Positions 24,067-49,409 of a stretch of 64,000 bases of DNA are shown here, one piece after another (within the stretch, counting starts at the first letter, position 1; the number at the start of each line of letters is the position of its first letter). The notes beneath the pieces are model-generated. The model had not been told where the DNA came from. It did not search any database and saw nothing but the letters and a program-made list of their open reading frames with translations. Location: contig NZ_JACHFD010000007.1 of NCBI RefSeq assembly GCF_014201715.1, forward strand, positions 124,001-188,000. Direction: 5' to 3'. This stretch comes from Haloferula luteola. GTDB taxonomy: Bacteria; Verrucomicrobiota; Verrucomicrobiia; Verrucomicrobiales; Akkermansiaceae. The position numbers and the translations under genes were made by a program.

Positions 24067-24855
24067 ATGAAACCCGTCCTTGCCTTTCTCGTGCTATCGC
24101 TGCCCGCTTCGGCAGTTCTTTCGGTGGATTTTGAATCCGTCGACGATCTCAGCAACTCATTCACGGTGGCCGGGGGAACGACCGGGATTTCGGTGATCGG
24201 AACTGGGGTGGGCTTCGATGGGTCTGATGGTGTGAACAATCTGACGGCCACTCGGGCGCATGCTTTCGTGGTTCCTCAGAGCTTTTCTGGGGACCTGAGT
24301 TCCTGGAGCACCAGCATCCTGTGGAATCCTGGGAATTCCACCGCCTCTCAATTTACCATCGGGGTGGCGGATTCACCTGATGTGTTCATGACAGGGACGG
24401 TTCCTAGCGCGATTCAGAATGCTGGGGACAGTACCTTCCTGTTTGGTTCTATTTACTCTATTTTCGCCTCGGGAGGCATCAATGTGACGACCACCGAGCC
24501 TGGTGTGAATCCGGTGATTAGGGATCAGACCTTGACCACTCTGGGGCTGAATACCTGGTATCATGTCTCTTTGGATGTGACCTTCAACGGAGGGATCAGC
24601 TACACCGCGACGGCCTCGATTTCGGCGGTGGATGGAACGGGTGCCCCGACCTCGACCTTGGTCTCTGCGAGTTCGACTTTCGACAATGCGACCCTTTCAG
24701 CCGACGGGGAAGTTTACACCTTTTTTGGGGTGACGGATATTGCGGGAACCATGGATGAATTCGTCACCACTGCGGTGGTGCCCGAACCTCATTCGCTGCT
24801 GCTGTGCAGTCTATCGACGGGCCTTTTGTTCCTGCGGCGTCGGCGGAGTTGTTGA
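24067..24855 (+). CDS. PEP-CTERM sorting-domain protein
   Basis: A 262-residue secreted protein. Signal peptide MKPVLAFLVLSLPASAVLS. The middle is beta-rich with many Thr/Ser/Gly (FESVDDLSNSFTVAGGT, YHVSLDVTFNGGISYTATAS), similar to lectin-like or LamG-like folds. The end is a classic PEP-CTERM tail: VVPEPHS, a hydrophobic helix (LLLCSLSTGLLFL) and a basic cluster RRRRS. Such proteins are cut and moved by an exosortase; a candidate enzyme is encoded at 27953-28756. The function of the mature part is unknown. Confidence 0.85.
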   Translation: MKPVLAFLVLSLPASAVLSVDFESVDDLSNSFTVAGGTTGISVIGTGVGFDGSDGVNNLTATRAHAFVVPQSFSGDLSSWSTSILWNPGNSTASQFTIGVADSPDVFMTGTVPSAIQNAGDSTFLFGSIYSIFASGGINVTTTEPGVNPVIRDQTLTTLGLNTWYHVSLDVTFNGGISYTATASISAVDGTGAPTSTLVSASSTFDNATLSADGEVYTFFGVTDIAGTMDEFVTTAVVPEPHSLLLCSLSTGLLFLRRRRSC

Positions 24856-26894: not shown

Positions 26895-27482
26895 TCAGGG
26901 GGCGCCCAGCAGCGGAAGCAGGCCCTCGAGTGCCGGGCCAAGTTCGACCCGTGGGTCGACAGGCTGCACCATCACGAGAACGGGTTCTTCCCCGCCCCAT
27001 TGGCGGAGCCAGCGTCGGAGGGTGGTTCGCGACCAGTACTCGATGGGGGAGTCAAAGAGGTGGCGGCCATCGGAGTAGTAGAAAAGAGCCTCGGTGGAAA
27101 TACCATCGCGAGTGAGATGAAGTTGTCGGACGTGGCCTCCTGCAAGATCATGAGATTGCTCTTCGTCGATTTCCCAACCGGCACCGCGGAAGCAATAGCG
27201 GGGATCGTGGACGACTTGGCGGTTGTGAGTGCCATCAATGATGGTGAGGGAGTAGCGAAGCCCCTTCCAAAGATAGATGGATTTGTAGCCCTTTGCGGCG
27301 CCGAGGGTGTCTTTCTCGAATTCACTTAGTTCGACCGGTTTGGACGTAAATCCCGGCCCTTCGCGGGGAAACTGGGCGATGCGATCCGTGGCGTCCGGCA
27401 ACTCCAGATGGCGGAGGGCGAGGGCGAGGAGGATGAGACCGAGGAGGCCGCTAAAAACGAGCAGGTTTTTCTTCGAACTCAT
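26895..27482 (-). CDS. exosortase-associated EpsI-like protein
   Basis: A 195-residue protein with one N-terminal membrane segment (LLVFSGLLGLILLALALRHL). The periplasmic part has the pattern of EpsI/DUF3485 proteins: YLWKGLRYSLTIIDGTHN, VHDPRYCFRGAGWEI, and GGHVRQLHLTRDG followed by a FYYSDG strand. Such proteins are encoded next to exosortases, often fused to them, and are linked to PEP-CTERM protein and exopolysaccharide export. The start overlaps the end of the small membrane protein gene by 32 bases. Confidence 0.8.
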   Translation of the reverse strand: MSSKKNLLVFSGLLGLILLALALRHLELPDATDRIAQFPREGPGFTSKPVELSEFEKDTLGAAKGYKSIYLWKGLRYSLTIIDGTHNRQVVHDPRYCFRGAGWEIDEEQSHDLAGGHVRQLHLTRDGISTEALFYYSDGRHLFDSPIEYWSRTTLRRWLRQWGGEEPVLVMVQPVDPRVELGPALEGLLPLLGAP

Positions 27483-27951
27483 GGCGCGATGGGTAGAAGC
27501 GGAGGGCGATGGAAAGGAGGCAGAGCCCTGCGGCGAGGCCGAGGCTGAGAGGGCTGAGAGTGGTTCCTACATAGGGACGCAGAATCCAGTACCACGCGGG
27601 CATCCAAAGCAGCCCAGCGGCGGTAAGGCCGAGGCGGGTGAGCGGGTGAGGAATGGGTTGGCAGATCAGCAAGGCAAGGGCGAGGTAGATGAGCGCCTGC
27701 ATTTCTCCGAGGATGCCGAGAGATAGCGCGATGGACGCGAGCGTGGATGGGCGCAGCGATATCGGGGATTTCTGCCACTGGAGGATGACAGCGGCGCACC
27801 ATAAAATGAAAGTTGGCGCGCCCAACCTCATCGTAGGGTCGTGCAACCACGCTTTGAACAAGGGGACTGACATGGCGAGCGCGATGGCGGCCATTGCCAA
27901 GCAAATCAGGGCGACGATCCGCTTTTCCGAGAATCTTGAGGCGGAGGACAC
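27451..27951 (-). CDS. exosortase-cluster membrane protein
   Basis: A 166-residue membrane protein that starts with a GTG 1 base after the exosortase stop. Four or five transmembrane segments are seen (IVALICLAMAAIALAMSVPL, APTFILWCAAVILQW, TLASIALSLGILGEMQALIYL, GLTAAGLLWMPAWYWIL, LSLGLAAGLCLLSIALRF). No known family is recognised. Its place between exosortase and EpsI-like genes, with an overlap on one side and a 1-base gap on the other, makes an accessory role in the same pathway likely. Confidence 0.65.
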   Translation of the reverse strand: MSSASRFSEKRIVALICLAMAAIALAMSVPLFKAWLHDPTMRLGAPTFILWCAAVILQWQKSPISLRPSTLASIALSLGILGEMQALIYLALALLICQPIPHPLTRLGLTAAGLLWMPAWYWILRPYVGTTLSPLSLGLAAGLCLLSIALRFYPSRHEFEEKPARF

Positions 27952-27952
27952 G

Positions 27953-28756
27953 TCAGGCGAAACGTTTGGAGATCCAGTGGGAGAGGGCAAGATAGCTGCC
28001 AAGCATGGTGCCGATGACTCCCATGGCGCCCCAAGTGTGGAAGGCGCCGGCGGCGGCATCGATGCCGAATCGCAGGCTCCAGCCCGTGATGACAATGATG
28101 CGCAAGGTATTGGCCAACCATGCGAGCACGGGGAGCAGTCCGACCATGATCCAAAAGCCGCGTTGGCGGGGGAACTGGAGGGCGGTCAGAGCGACGCCCC
28201 CGCTCATCAGGACCTGAAGAAGTTTCATGCCGCCGCAGGCAGCTTCGACAGAGATGGGAATGCCTCCTACCACCAGCTCGGTGCCGTGGGCGACGACGTG
28301 GTATCCGGCTGCTTCATAAGTGAGCGCGGTGAGATGGGCGCCGGTCAGGCGAAACCACCAACCGATGGGATCGCCATCGGTGAGCACCCAGGGAAAGGCC
28401 CCGGTAAGCAGGCATCCGAGGCGGGCGGGTGAAATGGAAGTGGCGGGGAGGAAATAGCTGACCGCCAGCCAGGACCAGCCGAACGCCATGAGGGTCATCT
28501 GATTCGCAAGAATGCCGATTCCCAGCAAGATGGCGGCAGGTAAGGTGAAACGGGGCCGTGAAGGTTGGACCGCGGAATGTTGGCGGGCCAAACGCCAGCT
28601 CAATGGAAGGATGGCAAGGATGACGAGAACATCAGGCGAAAGCTGCCACCATCGGCGGTCCAGCGCCCAGATGAGCGGAAAGATGACGCCGAGCAATGCT
28701 ACGGAGCTGCGTTCCAACGGACGAAGTCCTTCAAGTGTTGGTGCGGTCGAGCTCAT
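27953..28756 (-). CDS. exosortase (transpeptidase-like, PEP-CTERM sorting)
   Basis: A 267-residue multi-pass membrane enzyme thought to cut PEP-CTERM proteins. The start MSSTAPTLEG at 28756 overlaps the upstream TPR gene by 26 bases; the longer open frame is antisense-like noise over that gene. The three exosortase residues are present in order: Cys174 in VEAACGGMKLL, Arg219 in LANTLRIIVIT and His240 in AGAFHTWGAMG. About eight hydrophobic segments are visible. It sits in an operon with a PEP-CTERM substrate, TPR, membrane and EpsI-like proteins. Confidence 0.92.
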   Translation of the reverse strand: MSSTAPTLEGLRPLERSSVALLGVIFPLIWALDRRWWQLSPDVLVILAILPLSWRLARQHSAVQPSRPRFTLPAAILLGIGILANQMTLMAFGWSWLAVSYFLPATSISPARLGCLLTGAFPWVLTDGDPIGWWFRLTGAHLTALTYEAAGYHVVAHGTELVVGGIPISVEAACGGMKLLQVLMSGGVALTALQFPRQRGFWIMVGLLPVLAWLANTLRIIVITGWSLRFGIDAAAGAFHTWGAMGVIGTMLGSYLALSHWISKRFA

Positions 28757-30659
28757 GGAGCCATTGATGGAAGATCGGTTCGTTCGGGGCGAGGCGGAGG
28801 AGATCCTGAAGGAGGGTGCGGGCGGTGTCCCGTTGGTCGGCGGCGAGAGCTTCGCGGAAACGGTAGACCAGGCCTTCGATCGAGTCGGTGCCGAGGCCCT
28901 GATAGATCGCGAGGGCCGTATCGGGATCCTTGCGGGCGAGGGCGGCACGGGCGGTGAGTTCTCTGCCACCGACAGAGTCGGCGAGATCCGTGCGAGCGGC
29001 GAGTCGTGCATCGAAGGCTTTCCAATCGCGGCGCTCCAGTTCGGCGAGTGCGAGCAGGTAGTTGGCTCGAGTTCCGGGGCCCTGGGTGTCCGAGGCGACG
29101 GATTCAAGTTGAGCGAGACCTTCGTCGGTCTTGCCGAGGCTTAGCAGCAACTCACCGGCGAGCCCTTGGACGGCGAGGTCGTTTGGATACTGCGCGGCAA
29201 CTTGCAGCGCCATTTCTGCACCGGCCTGGCGTGTGCGCATTTTGGTGAGGGCATAGGGCAACCAATCGAGTTCAGTGGGGAGGTCGGCTGCGAGGGGGAA
29301 ATCAGCAGGTGCCAGCAGACGATCTGCAGCCCCCGTCCAACCTTGAGCGAGGATCAGGGCGGCGGGAGCAGCGGATGAACGCAGGAAAGTCTCGAGGGAA
29401 GGAGATTGACCGGGTTTTAGGTTCGCCAATGTCGCGAAAAACCGGTGATTGAGTCGGTCGGTCGAGAGCGTGAATTCGGCCGGCCAGGAGGCGCCTGCCC
29501 GCCAATCAAGAAGGGCTGAAAGTAGGGTCTGGAGATCCCGTGCGGTGCTATCGGGCGCGAGCTTGATGGCATCGAGCGTGGCGCGAGCGGCAGCTTCCTG
29601 ACCGGTGCGGATTTGCTCGAGAATCGTGAGCCACTGAAAGGCTTCATTGTCGGCGAGAATCGCAGGAGCTTCGGCGTTGGGGGTCAGAAAATTCTCCGGC
29701 AGGAAGGCATCGATGGGGGTGTTGGCGAGGTCAAGGGCGACGCCTCCCCACCATTCGCCAGCCCGCGGGGCAAGAGGTTGGCCGCGGGATTGGGTCACGC
29801 GTTCCCAAAACCAATCATTGAACCAACTGCGGACGTCGCCGGTCTTCTCATACGTCTGGCGCCAGGTTTCGATGGCCTGGGGCAAAGCGCGAGTGCGCAG
29901 GTAGAAGCGTGCCAATTGCTCGCCATGGAGAGGATTTGAGGGCTCGAGAAGATAGGCGGCAATGTACTCGCGGCGCGCATCACTCAGACGGCCGAAGCTT
30001 TCAAGGTAGCCAGCCGCGGTCGCTCGAAGATCGACAGATTGGGGATTCTCCGCGAAGGCGGCATTCAGGGCGCGAGTGACGGTGGCGGGATCCTTATCGG
30101 CGAGCAGGGCGAGCCGAAGCTGGCGATTCACCTCGTCATTGCCCTCGGCCTTCCAGGTATCGAGAGATTCCCGAGCTTCGCGGCGACGGCCATCGTGGAT
30201 GCATTGATCCGCTTCGAGGAGCTTCCAAGCGTGGGGTTGCTGGCGCTTTTCTGGCGGCCAAAGTTCGAGCACAGGCAGGGCGGTGTCCCATTGCCCGCGG
30301 TGGAGCTTCATGCGCATCCACCAAAGAGCGGCGGATTCGCATTCACGCAGGGTAAATGGATAGCGACCCACCAAGGACTCCAATTGTCCGTAGTCTCTCG
30401 ACTCTGCCGCAGCGTTGACCATCAGGCTCGGCCACTCTGCCATATCGGAAAACGCGAGGTCGGCCTTGAAATGAGCCTGCAGGAGCTTGAGGGCCTCACC
30501 CGGGTTCTCCGTTTGAAGCAGTTTCCTGGCTTGATCGACCACCCCTTGGCGAGCCACCTGCGCGGCCTTTTGAGTCGATTGGCGATGGAGGTAGAAGCCG
30601 CCCGTCCCCAAGATGGCGAGGACAATGGCGGCGAGTGCAAGCCTGAGAAACGTTTTCAT
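28731..30659 (-). CDS. TPR-like membrane-anchored protein of exosortase operon
   Basis: A 642-residue protein. An N-terminal transmembrane helix (ALAAIVLAILGTGGFYLHR) is followed by a long series of helix pairs of TPR type, e.g. ARKLLQTENPGEALKLLQAHF, AAGYLESFGRLSDARREYIAAYLLEPSNP, ELLLSLGKTDEGLAQLESVA, AALARKDPDTALAIYQGLG. The superhelix would lie outside the cytoplasm. TPR proteins frequently occur in PEP-CTERM/exopolysaccharide loci. It starts 8 bases after the DUF4114 gene and overlaps the exosortase gene. Confidence 0.85.
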   Translation of the reverse strand: MKTFLRLALAAIVLAILGTGGFYLHRQSTQKAAQVARQGVVDQARKLLQTENPGEALKLLQAHFKADLAFSDMAEWPSLMVNAAAESRDYGQLESLVGRYPFTLRECESAALWWMRMKLHRGQWDTALPVLELWPPEKRQQPHAWKLLEADQCIHDGRRREARESLDTWKAEGNDEVNRQLRLALLADKDPATVTRALNAAFAENPQSVDLRATAAGYLESFGRLSDARREYIAAYLLEPSNPLHGEQLARFYLRTRALPQAIETWRQTYEKTGDVRSWFNDWFWERVTQSRGQPLAPRAGEWWGGVALDLANTPIDAFLPENFLTPNAEAPAILADNEAFQWLTILEQIRTGQEAAARATLDAIKLAPDSTARDLQTLLSALLDWRAGASWPAEFTLSTDRLNHRFFATLANLKPGQSPSLETFLRSSAAPAALILAQGWTGAADRLLAPADFPLAADLPTELDWLPYALTKMRTRQAGAEMALQVAAQYPNDLAVQGLAGELLLSLGKTDEGLAQLESVASDTQGPGTRANYLLALAELERRDWKAFDARLAARTDLADSVGGRELTARAALARKDPDTALAIYQGLGTDSIEGLVYRFREALAADQRDTARTLLQDLLRLAPNEPIFHQWLHELDRTNT

Positions 30660-30667
30660 GAGTGGGG

Positions 30668-31573
30668 TCAGGAATCCGTGATCCGAACCGGAACGGGCAC
30701 CGCCTTTGGTTGGCGCCGAAGTTGCCAGAAGCCGATGCCGACGAGCGCGGCCATCATGATCCAGAAGGACGGTTCGGGATTGGCGAGGCGTGCGACGTTG
30801 GCAGCGCCGATGTCGATGGCGATGACGAGGTCATTGAAGTCGAGATCGCCTCCGCCGTAGAGGTCCTCGAATCCGATGAGTAGGTAGGGACTGCCCTCAA
30901 GGGCAAAGGCGACGAGGTGCTGCAGAGAATCCGGATTGGATGCGGCATCGGCCGTGTAGACATCGCTGCCACCATAGGCACCGTTGGCGATGAGGAAGAA
31001 GTCGAGAAAGTTCCCCGCGGCGATTGTGCCGAGGTCGACGAAGTCGCCGGGAGTGATCGGCACACTGTCGTTGCGGGTGATATCGGAAGATGTCGGGTCG
31101 GAATAGTAGACGTTGTCCGAGGATGCGTCGGGGAAAATGAGTAGTGGATCGCTGGTGGTTCCGTTGGCGACGCTCTCGGTCGTGTAGCCGAGAGTGTTCA
31201 GATATCCGGCCCCTTCGCTAAGGAAGTAGACGCGCACGGAGGAATCCTGGCCGAGCGTGAGCGCAGCGGGATCCAAGCTGACGGCGGAGATGTCCTGAAG
31301 AGCGGTCGCCTCACTTAGGTTCTGGTTGACGAAGTTGAGAAGGACCGGGAGGTCGGTGGTTTGGAAACTGGCGGAGGCTTCGTCTGAGCCTGCGGCCATC
31401 ACAGGGCCCGCCACTTCGAGTCCGAAGGGTCGGGCCGCGTCTTGAAAGCTGGCTTCGGTCTGAGCCTGCGCTGCGGTCAAGCTGACAGTGCCAAGCCCGA
31501 GGGCGATGGCCCGGAGGAAGAGCCCTCGGGAGTAGGAAGCGGGGGAGTGAGAGATTAGGGGGGATGTTTTCAT
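30668..31573 (-). CDS. DUF4114-type PEP-CTERM protein
   Basis: A 301-residue secreted protein, first gene of the exosortase operon. Start at the ATG at 31573 (MKTSPLISHS); an ATG 57 bases upstream is in frame. Signal peptide LFLRAIALGLGTVSLTAAQAQ. The centre has the DUF4114 motif YLLIGFEDLYGGGDLDFNDLVIAIDI, a calcium-site-like acidic loop. The tail is PEP-CTERM: ANPEPSFW, a hydrophobic helix (IMMAALVGIGFW) and QLRRQ. It is probably the dedicated substrate of the neighbouring exosortase. Confidence 0.85.
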   Translation of the reverse strand: MKTSPLISHSPASYSRGLFLRAIALGLGTVSLTAAQAQTEASFQDAARPFGLEVAGPVMAAGSDEASASFQTTDLPVLLNFVNQNLSEATALQDISAVSLDPAALTLGQDSSVRVYFLSEGAGYLNTLGYTTESVANGTTSDPLLIFPDASSDNVYYSDPTSSDITRNDSVPITPGDFVDLGTIAAGNFLDFFLIANGAYGGSDVYTADAASNPDSLQHLVAFALEGSPYLLIGFEDLYGGGDLDFNDLVIAIDIGAANVARLANPEPSFWIMMAALVGIGFWQLRRQPKAVPVPVRITDS

Positions 31574-48391: not shown

Positions 48392-48515
48392 AGTGAACTC
48401 TCTTGTCGGGTTTGGCAGACGAGAGTCGCATGAGGAGATGGGCGGATCCTTTTCTGCCCAAGCTCACCTTCGTCCTTCGGAACAAGAAGGATGATGAACC
48501 CATGTGTCCCTCAAT

Positions 48516-49409
48516 ATGAAGCCAACCCAGCGATTTCAGTTTTCAGGAGGGAGCCTCAGGGCTTCCTCGTTTCTTTCTCTTGCCCTTTTAGCGGGGGGGA
48601 CAGTGCCATGTTTGAAGGGCGCGATCACCGCAGATTTTTCCGGCGGAAATGGCAGTGACTCTGTGGATCAGTTTACGGGAGTCGCTGGAGGCGGATGGGC
48701 GGGGGCCTGGCAATCCAACACCGCGGGGACCAGTGGGGGAACGAGCTTTTCGAGTTCAGTTCTCGGCAGCAGCCCCCTGAACTCAGGTGGGGATTATTTG
48801 AGCACCGTCCTTATCGGAGGCAGCGGGACGTCCAAGGGGGGTGTGCAGCGGGCCTACGAAACCTCAGGCTCGGTGGATTTGTCGGCTGTCCATCAGCTGT
48901 CTTTCGACTTCCGGATCGATAGTGATCTGAGCACCTTCACTTCGACCACGGACTATCTCCAGGCGTTTGATCGGCCCGCGAGTTCGGATTTTGGCTCGAA
49001 TGGAACGTGGTTGATCCGGGCTGCCGGGGCATCGGTGAATGGCATCAACGCCCTGAACTGGATGTTCTATGACGGTGGGCAGGATGGGGCGGGTTTCAAT
49101 ACGGCCAATTTCGTCGATTCAGGCGTCGCATTGGCTTCGGGGACCGTGTATCATTTCGAGGTTTTTATCGATCCGGCGGCACTCGAGTATTCGGTGAGTA
49201 TCAATGGCGGGCCGATCTCGGCCCCCTTGGGTTTCCGCACGGGGGATGCAGGCAACCTCGGGAACCTGAATTTTGGAGGTCAGGTATCGAGTGCAGGAGA
49301 AGAGATGGCATTTTCCTTGGATTCGGTAGCGGTGGTTCCCGAGCCGTCAGCCACGGCTTTGCTGCTCGTCGCGGGCTGTGGAATCGGATTGCGGCGTCGT
49401 CGGGGTTGA
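48516..49409 (+). CDS. PEP-CTERM sorting-domain protein
   Basis: A 297-residue secreted protein. Start at ATG 48516; a GTG 12 bases upstream is in frame. The signal peptide lies around residues 16-35 (RASSFLSLALLAGGTVPCLKG). The body is Gly/Ser-rich with lectin-like strands (LSFDFRIDSDLSTFTSTTDYL, YHFEVFIDPAALEYSVSIN). The tail is VVPEPSATALLLVAGCGIG followed by LRRRRG, a full PEP-CTERM signal. It is convergent and overlaps the AraC gene by 63 bases, the two tails lying antisense to each other. Confidence 0.85.
   Translation: MKPTQRFQFSGGSLRASSFLSLALLAGGTVPCLKGAITADFSGGNGSDSVDQFTGVAGGGWAGAWQSNTAGTSGGTSFSSSVLGSSPLNSGGDYLSTVLIGGSGTSKGGVQRAYETSGSVDLSAVHQLSFDFRIDSDLSTFTSTTDYLQAFDRPASSDFGSNGTWLIRAAGASVNGINALNWMFYDGGQDGAGFNTANFVDSGVALASGTVYHFEVFIDPAALEYSVSINGGPISAPLGFRTGDAGNLGNLNFGGQVSSAGEEMAFSLDSVAVVPEPSATALLLVAGCGIGLRRRRG

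Follow-up and report, generated by a model that had tools for sequence, protein, structure and literature searches.

The five-gene operon and its protein families

A 64,000-nucleotide stretch of the Haloferula luteola genome (contig NZ_JACHFD010000007.1, positions 124,001 to 188,000; hereafter the window) carries a minus-strand run of five genes at 26895-31573, which encode a DUF4114 protein with a PEP-CTERM-like tag (SUB), a tetratricopeptide repeat protein (TPR), an exosortase (XRT), a small membrane protein (SMP), and an EpsI-like protein (EPSI). The features of this putative sorting cassette are listed in Table 1. Consecutive genes overlap or are separated by at most 8 bases, with an 8-nt gap between SUB and TPR, a 26-nt overlap of TPR and XRT, a 1-nt gap between XRT and SMP, and a 32-nt overlap of SMP and EPSI. 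All five open reading frames (ORFs) were found at the place and on the strand given in an earlier note on this DNA. A scan for promoters and terminators returned 1 and 4 sites, respectively, versus 0.8 and 4.3 in shuffled sequences.

Table 1. Features of the exosortase cassette in the window
Feature	Position	Strand	Description
SUB	30668-31573	-	301 aa, DUF4114 and C-terminal PEP-CTERM-like tag; predicted dedicated substrate
DUF4114 domain of SUB	30812-31021	-	Residues 185-254
Sorting tag of SUB	30671-30778	-	Pro266-Glu267-Pro268, hydrophobic stretch, basic cluster, tail
TPR protein	28731-30659	-	642 aa, single N-terminal membrane helix
XRT exosortase	27953-28756	-	267 aa; Cys174 28235-28237, Arg219 28100-28102, His240 28037-28039
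SMP membrane protein	27451-27951	-	166 aa, GTG start; probable relative of the exosortase N-terminal half
WMPA stretch of SMP	27595-27606	-	Residues 116-119; corresponds in place to Phe-Pro-Trp 121-123 of XRT
EPSI	26895-27482	-	195 aa, DUF3485/EpsI-like, single N-terminal membrane helix
His92-Asp93-Pro94-x2-Cys97 of EPSI	27192-27209	-	Invariant motif

XRT exceeds the cut-offs of the Pfam family PF09721 (Exosortase_EpsH; 49.7 vs 25.7 bits) and of the NCBIfam exosortase/archaeosortase signature TIGR04178 (34.1 vs 23 bits), and reaches no named NCBIfam exosortase subtype. The catalytic residues had been named correctly in the earlier note: Cys174, Arg219, and His240 are invariant in all 11 aligned cassette exosortases, that of the window included, and XRT is predicted from its sequence to cleave PEP-CTERM tails. 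A search of solved-structure sequences with a profile of the cassette exosortases gave no match at E<=10. The window genome has three exosortases, XRT included, and one of the others is an exosortase Z (544 bits, cut-off 475).

EPSI passes the cut-off of PF11984 (DUF3485; 30.7 vs 26.1 bits) and stays below that of TIGR02914 (15 vs 42.8 bits); the columns of its His-Asp-Pro-x2-Cys motif are invariant in 15 of 15 aligned sequences. Its top NCBIfam match is the EpsI part of exosortase O (TIGR04489, 32.1 bits), as exosortase N (TIGR04476, 35 bits) is that of XRT. Both fall far short of the respective cut-offs of 250 and 200 bits, and these two subtypes differ further from the cassette in holding the exosortase and EpsI regions in one chain. 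The TPR protein, which could be aligned across 15 loci, matches PF14559 (TPR_19) with 45.9 bits in Pfam. It is far below the cut-off of the PrsT model TIGR02917 (36.9 vs 312.2 bits) and lacks the lipoprotein signal that serves as a criterion for PrsT, having no Cys in its first 50 residues.

SUB is above the cut-off of PF13448 (DUF4114; 45.4 vs 27 bits), a domain that all 12 members of the set match at E<=0.01, and is 41-60% identical to its homologues of 11 other loci (the truncated SUB of L059 was excluded from the set). In the 12 aligned sequences, window included, the acidic DUF4114 residues Glu236, Asp237, Asp245, and Asp248 as well as the Pro-Glu-Pro of the tag are invariant. The hydrophobic stretch and basic residues that follow at the C-terminus are also present, as judged by eye from the alignment.

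Distribution and origin of the cassette

The cassette is real and rare. Loci were mapped with hidden Markov models (HMMs) of the five families on the loci of a pattern scan and on genomes selected with an EPSI profile. The order XRT-SMP-EPSI was found in 18 genomes including that of the window (each place counted once; L020, L021, L022, and L055 duplicate L009, L010, L011, and L015, respectively), which belong to Verrucomicrobiota, Chlamydiota, a Deltaproteobacteria-labelled metagenome-assembled genome (MAG), and a genome of the phylum of that MAG. TPR precedes XRT in 17 of the 18 (exception: G036), and SUB precedes TPR in 13 (exceptions: G036, G356, G425, G426, and G482). Moreover, SMP is frameshifted in G056, and the three genes form one ORF in G269. 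The earlier note had proposed a compact sorting module with its own substrate, and this proposal is borne out by a gene order kept across families and phyla and by the co-occurrence of SUB. A chance neighbourhood was ruled out by the identical order in distant genomes.

The pattern scan of GTDB contigs yielded ten named loci, including a Coraliomargarita isolate, Parachlamydiales and Chlamydiae MAGs, the Deltaproteobacteria-labelled MAG, and six Verrucomicrobiota MAGs. With the EPSI profile, 8 of 387 genomes of the phylum scored at least 182 bits and the next one 59 bits; at E<=1e-12, the profile also detected 3 of 151 genomes in Chlamydiota and 6 of 297 in the phylum of the Deltaproteobacteria-labelled MAG. 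Two of these six are full-length matches above 230 bits with the full five-gene order, two are fragments of decayed cassettes, and the remaining two (G831 and G787, 63-68 bits) have loci outside the mapped set. The profiles and the tree do not contain L127 and L149, which came to light later; L009 lacks TPR and SUB.

Remnants of the cassette were also observed. In a 19th locus (G103), most of SUB, TPR, and XRT is gone, and the beginning of SUB directly adjoins the XRT end (L059 10294-10604). Fragments of XRT and EPSI are all that is left in G762 (L150 9000-9936), and G809 (L151 9798-10004) retains an EPSI fragment.

Among close relatives, the distribution is patchy. A search for XRT in 57 relatives found it in the window genome, in G036, G050, and G056 of the same order, and weakly in G027. 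Within the window's genus, no XRT match at E<=0.001 was obtained in the 17 other genomes (two of them less than 75% complete), and a genus-wide trait was therefore ruled out. The comparison of gene order in relatives suggested in the earlier note thus gave a mixed outcome: the order is present in relatives in a patchy way, and its exosortase was not found in those of the same genus.

It seems that the window cassette was probably acquired laterally. In an unrooted tree of 16 cassettes (XRT, EPSI, and TPR; 1112 columns; truncated XRT of L059 excluded, as from the XRT set), the split between the trio of the window, Coraliomargarita (L015), and G226 and the remaining 13 has 100% ultrafast bootstrap support; G289, from the window's own family, is outside this trio and next to it with 96%. 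Coraliomargarita belongs to Puniceicoccales and the window organism to Verrucomicrobiales. The XRT of the window shares 50% identity with its Coraliomargarita counterpart, compared with 26-37% for the XRTs of loci in its own order. The tree grouping, these identities, and the absence from 17 genomes of the genus favour lateral transfer. In an empty-site test, the GH30 neighbour of the cassette had homologues in 5 of the 17 other genus genomes; in the 12.5-13 kb around each of the five, tblastn (1e-5) gave no match to any of 12 further window proteins from the cassette and its flanks.

The small membrane protein and rearranged exosortases

SMP was described in the earlier note as a membrane protein without known family. 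The window SMP indeed matches no Pfam or NCBIfam model at E<=1; profile comparisons, in turn, relate the family moderately to the N-terminal half of exosortases. When a profile of 16 SMPs was aligned by hhalign with the N-terminal half of 46 exosortases (16 cassette members and 30 canonical ones), a score of 30.1 was obtained (E 2e-4, probability 47%), and the score was 26.7 for the 30 non-cassette exosortases alone. The maximum was 20.8 for 100 block-shuffled SMP profiles and 16.4 (mean 11.3) for 90 windows from 26 unrelated multi-helix proteins. With smaller alignments, the match was collinear in the same way and the probability was 7-18%. The SMP profiles do not include the frameshifted SMP of L011/L022, and the 30 canonical exosortases (of 31 loci) were chosen via a Cys plus Asn-x2-Arg filter, so that their Cys/Arg invariance is partly built in. 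Ten SMPs were also compared with 18,950 NCBIfam models in an open scan. Exosortase T was the top match for two of them (E 0.0087 and 0.014; 19-98 and 19-114 of the 472 model positions), in both cases in register within the N-terminal half of the model. Six of the remaining eight had no match, and two matched other families only.

The predicted structures are consistent with this relationship. In the AlphaFold2 models, both of medium confidence (mean pLDDT 75.3 for XRT and 74.4 for SMP) and built on 10-11 sequences, the helices of XRT span residues 13-32, 34-39, 41-59, 71-84, 87-102, 110-119, 121-125, and 129-149, and those of SMP span residues 4-27, 29-37, 44-61, 70-82, 85-97, 103-115, 118-128, and 133-152. 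A comparison of these boundaries shows the same order and similar lengths, with a matching helix break at Phe-Pro-Trp 121-123 of XRT and Trp-Met-Pro 116-118 of SMP. Pro122 is invariant among the aligned exosortases, and Trp116 and Pro118 are invariant in 10 of 10 SMPs. Neither model matches a PDB structure at E<=0.001.

This sequence and model evidence gives moderate support to the view that SMP is a non-catalytic relative of the N-terminal half of exosortases. There is a second partial similarity as well: SMP residues 82-127 (window positions 27571-27708) match the catalytic half over 44 columns with a score of 23.8, in the portion after the catalytic Cys. SMP might also be read as a shortened whole exosortase. 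The SMP alignment has no invariant Cys, Arg, or His, so that SMP is not a second enzyme under either reading.

It is also conceivable, though we consider it unlikely, that SMP is a small membrane chaperone unrelated to exosortases, whose weak similarity stems from shared hydrophobic helix patterns. The low hhalign probability, the additional match to the catalytic half, the lack of any exosortase match for eight of the ten scanned SMPs and for the window SMP, and the few sequences underlying both structural models are what such a protein would lead one to expect. The unrelated multi-helix proteins, however, stay well below the scores of 26-30 reached by SMP. A coincidence of helix patterns also fits poorly with exosortase T as the top model for two SMPs, matched in register, and with the recognition of one of eight core-first exosortases (described below) by the SMP HMM.

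In G269, the three proteins are fused in a single 663-residue ORF (XRT 35-299, SMP 314-459, and EPSI 477-662). In addition, we found eight exosortases, here called core-first, in which the catalytic core comes first and is followed by a membrane domain of ~190 residues and, in seven of the eight, by an EpsI-like region. The set consists of the exosortase Z of the window genome and fusions in L033, L035-L037, L057, L120, and L121. Like the cassette, these proteins combine a catalytic core, a membrane domain, and mostly an EpsI-like region, and in G261 and G359 the SUB family adjoins them; unlike the cassette, they have no N-terminal half ahead of the core, and the SMP-like part is attached. The profile comparison of their middle domain gave a score of 29.5 with SMP (E 6e-4, probability 30%; 151 columns) and of 29.1 with the exosortase N-terminal half (probability 36%). 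Without the G261 and G359 proteins, the scores were 20.5 and 26.9, respectively, and shuffled middle domains reached at most 16.4 against SMP. When the proteins were searched singly with the SMP HMM, the middle of the G359 protein was matched (i-E 5.5e-5, search space 100), and matches in the other seven were weak or absent. In the exosortase Z of the window genome, searched in this way, no match to SMP or EpsI was found.

G261 (L120 6675-12938) and G359 (L121 6514-12784) combine the SUB family with a rearranged machine, as two adjacent SUB genes lie next to a core-first exosortase-EpsI fusion in both. The product of the next gene has 963 residues in G261, where it matches the PrsT TPR model with 80 bits, and 961 residues in G359; neither protein was matched by the TPR profile of the cassette at E<=1e-4. 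G226 has a second exosortase operon (L057 462-5511) ~4 kb from its cassette, which encodes a 324-aa protein without Pfam match, a 783-aa protein (possibly TPR), and a 559-aa core-first exosortase-EpsI fusion.

These arrangements suggest a more general idea, which we put forward tentatively and with somewhat less than even confidence. Exosortases might be built from interchangeable membrane modules, namely a catalytic core and a non-catalytic half of four to five helices that is placed before the core (classical enzymes), after it (core-first enzymes, in one chain with EpsI), or apart from it (SMP). The cassette enzyme would then have its own half and a detached second one, and XRT, SMP, and EPSI would work together as a pseudo-heterodimer, with SMP offering the substrate or the acceptor to the catalytic core.

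Candidate substrate, exopolysaccharide setting, and predicted function

The dedication of the SUB family to the cassette is supported by its co-occurrence with the cassette genes. Over the 387 genomes of the phylum, the top match of the SUB HMM reached at least 200 bits in ten genomes (two more reach 63 bits). Seven of the ten fall among the eight EPSI-positive genomes, and the eighth of these, G103, has a SUB remnant. The other three are G261, G359 (with their core-first fusions), and G402. The G402 SUB (L122 6534-7610) has no PEP-CTERM tag and one hydrophobic segment; no exosortase gene was present in the 13.5 kb seen there, and G402 is outside the 118 genomes with an EPSI-profile match. The window genome has one SUB-family match at E<=1e-15 among the best 6 of 16 candidates scored, and it adjoins its enzyme. 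Three of the genomes without an adjoining SUB have relatives of it elsewhere (three in G356, three weak ones of 43-74 bits in G425, and four in G482), and all ten end in Pro-Glu-Pro tails. One G482 copy lies ~11 kb from the cassette and the rest are on other contigs. This dispersal agrees with the pattern described for dedicated sorting systems, in which a single target is adjacent and multiple targets are dispersed (PMC3237569).

SUB is best read as a putative surface lectin, since the DUF4114 domain of Myxococcus PilY1.1 has been proposed to bind Ca2+ and exopolysaccharide (PMC9109919); sugar binding by SUB would follow by analogy. Two further PEP-CTERM proteins were observed in the window, at 24067-24855 (22.2 bits; 19.4 bits in the protein scan) and 48504-49409 (22.8 bits), both over the cut-off in the genome scan, and their short tag differs from that of SUB. 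A literature search returned no paper joining PEP-CTERM to DUF4114 or exosortase to DUF3485; it covered the literature on exosortase subtypes in part, and an earlier description is possible.

As reported by Haft et al. (2006; PMC1569441), epsH homologues are nearly always found among exopolysaccharide (EPS) genes. Nine Pfam-confirmed seed proteins were used to examine this setting. In agreement with the earlier note, no homologue of these glycosyltransferase/exopolysaccharide seeds was found in window positions 14000-45000 (over 31 kb). The independence from exopolysaccharide inferred there is supported in part only, as glycosyltransferase, flippase, polysaccharide-export, or O-antigen-ligase homologues adjoin the cassette in 10 of 19 loci (L010, L015, L016, L019, L024, L057, L059, L061, L127, and L149). 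No seed homologue was detected in the other nine (window, L009, L017, L018, L022, L023, L056, L058, and L060); in several of these, the sequence to one side is short. Glycosyltransferases are thus frequent partners, and the possibility that they are constant ones, which the earlier note had raised against its own reading, was ruled out. The cassette is often, not always, linked to exopolysaccharide genes, and it stands apart from them in the window.

In L015 and L057, the cassette directly follows polysaccharide-export and flippase genes and is itself followed by a sigma-54-type regulator (from Pfam for L057 and by homology for L015) and a glycosyltransferase. A 659-residue protein encoded next to the L015 cassette has a homologue among the cassette neighbours in L023; both have no Pfam match. 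On contig C4 of the window genome (L014 8139-16206), the exosortase Z is about 5 kb away from a flippase that shares 58% identity with the one next to the Coraliomargarita cassette; this flippase and a glycosyltransferase homologue are ~4-5 kb from the exosortase. The window itself is rich in glycoside hydrolases at 14287-63171 (GH10, GH39, two GH43, GH30, GH92, an alpha-L-fucosidase, a GH2 beta-galactosidase, and an acetylesterase-type (SASA) protein), and this part looks like a polysaccharide-degradation region.

Taken together, we consider it likely that the cassette is a dedicated exosortase system of a new subtype that serves a DUF4114 surface protein, contains a half-exosortase subunit without catalytic function, and has a probable lateral origin. 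The module as such is well supported by gene order, family membership, catalytic residues, SUB co-occurrence, and one XRT-SMP-EPSI fusion; the half-exosortase subunit is moderately supported. Several points weigh against this picture. The case is wholly computational, the fusion is known from a single MAG contig, and the hhalign probabilities of SMP are low to moderate (7-47%). The tag of the window SUB is below the PF07589 cut-off of 20.7 bits (14.1 in the protein scan and 18.0 in the genome scan) and 46 other places in the genome are above it, so that another of the three exosortases could process SUB, or XRT could process other proteins. G036 and G426 carry XRT-SMP-EPSI and have no SUB at E<=1e-10, a second SUB gene of G289 lies apart from the cassette there, and one G359 SUB ends in Pro-Glu-Ala instead of Pro-Glu-Pro. 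Moreover, the genome searches scored the best candidates only (6 per genome for SUB and 8 for EPSI), and extra copies are possible.

Some of these points, namely the 46 PEP-CTERM places, would also suit an ordinary accessory of exopolysaccharide loci, with a classical exosortase, EPS genes elsewhere in the genome, and SUB as one of many substrates. The EPS or glycosyltransferase neighbours of 10 loci, the position of the Coraliomargarita cassette behind export and flippase genes, and the related flippase and glycosyltransferase homologue on C4 are likewise in line with it. We regard this explanation as improbable, slightly more so than an SMP unrelated to exosortases, given that nine loci lack homologues of the EPS seeds (L058 and L060 with more than 8 kb on either side of SMP), that XRT reaches no named subtype, and that the SUB family tracks the cassette. 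That the window operon is a decaying remnant out of use, as the remnants in G103, G762, and G809 and the patchy distribution of XRT among relatives might suggest, is very improbable, since all five ORFs are intact, the catalytic residues are kept, and the junctions are tight.

If the cassette is such a dedicated system, SUB would be exported, and its PEP-CTERM tail would then keep it in the inner membrane. XRT would cut this tail through its Cys-Arg-His triad, with Cys174 attacking, and the cut SUB may be handed to a surface acceptor, resulting in release or in attachment at the surface. SMP and EPSI may form one complex with XRT, probably for docking and transfer of the substrate, as the fusion and the constant gene order suggest, and the TPR protein might act as a membrane-bound adaptor or chaperone. 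As a surface lectin, SUB would hold polysaccharide at the cell, which may be self-made exopolysaccharide in many relatives. In the window organism, it could possibly be a plant-type polysaccharide, because the cassette lies in a glycoside-hydrolase region.

Several known systems resemble the cassette in part. The PEP-CTERM/EpsH (XrtA) system with EpsI and PrsT, as described in Haft 2006 (PMC1569441), shares a Cys-Arg-His exosortase, an EpsI-like gene directly downstream, a TPR protein, and a PEP-CTERM substrate; EpsI was stated there to have no known function. The cassette differs in having no PrsK/PrsR, a single operon substrate, and the additional SMP, in scoring far under the XrtA and PrsT cut-offs, and in that a setting of EPS genes is not obligate. 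In the rhombosortase/GlyGly-CTERM genomes with a single target, the one target adjoins the sorting enzyme, and several targets are dispersed (PMC3237569); that enzyme is of another protease class, and in the cassette three further genes travel along. An exosortase with an adjoining partner protein is also known from XrtF of Flavobacterium johnsoniae (PMC10936215 and PMC12188702), a likeness of gene arrangement. The targets of XrtF are not known, whereas SUB is a candidate for XRT. Loss of XrtF or its neighbour lowers surface colonisation and biofilm formation (PMC10936215), which provides a precedent for an exosortase partner protein that matters.

The biochemistry of exosortases is poorly known, and a five-gene kit with one candidate substrate, a natural three-subunit fusion, and a putative detached half would offer a minimal system for its study. 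The cassette could be moved to a laboratory host, in which cleavage, the need for each subunit, and the acceptor may be tested. Export of a PEP-CTERM protein by E. coli is on record (PMC10957091). Moreover, the SUB family joins exosortase sorting to DUF4114 and may thereby provide a testable link between protein sorting and the holding of polysaccharide at the cell.

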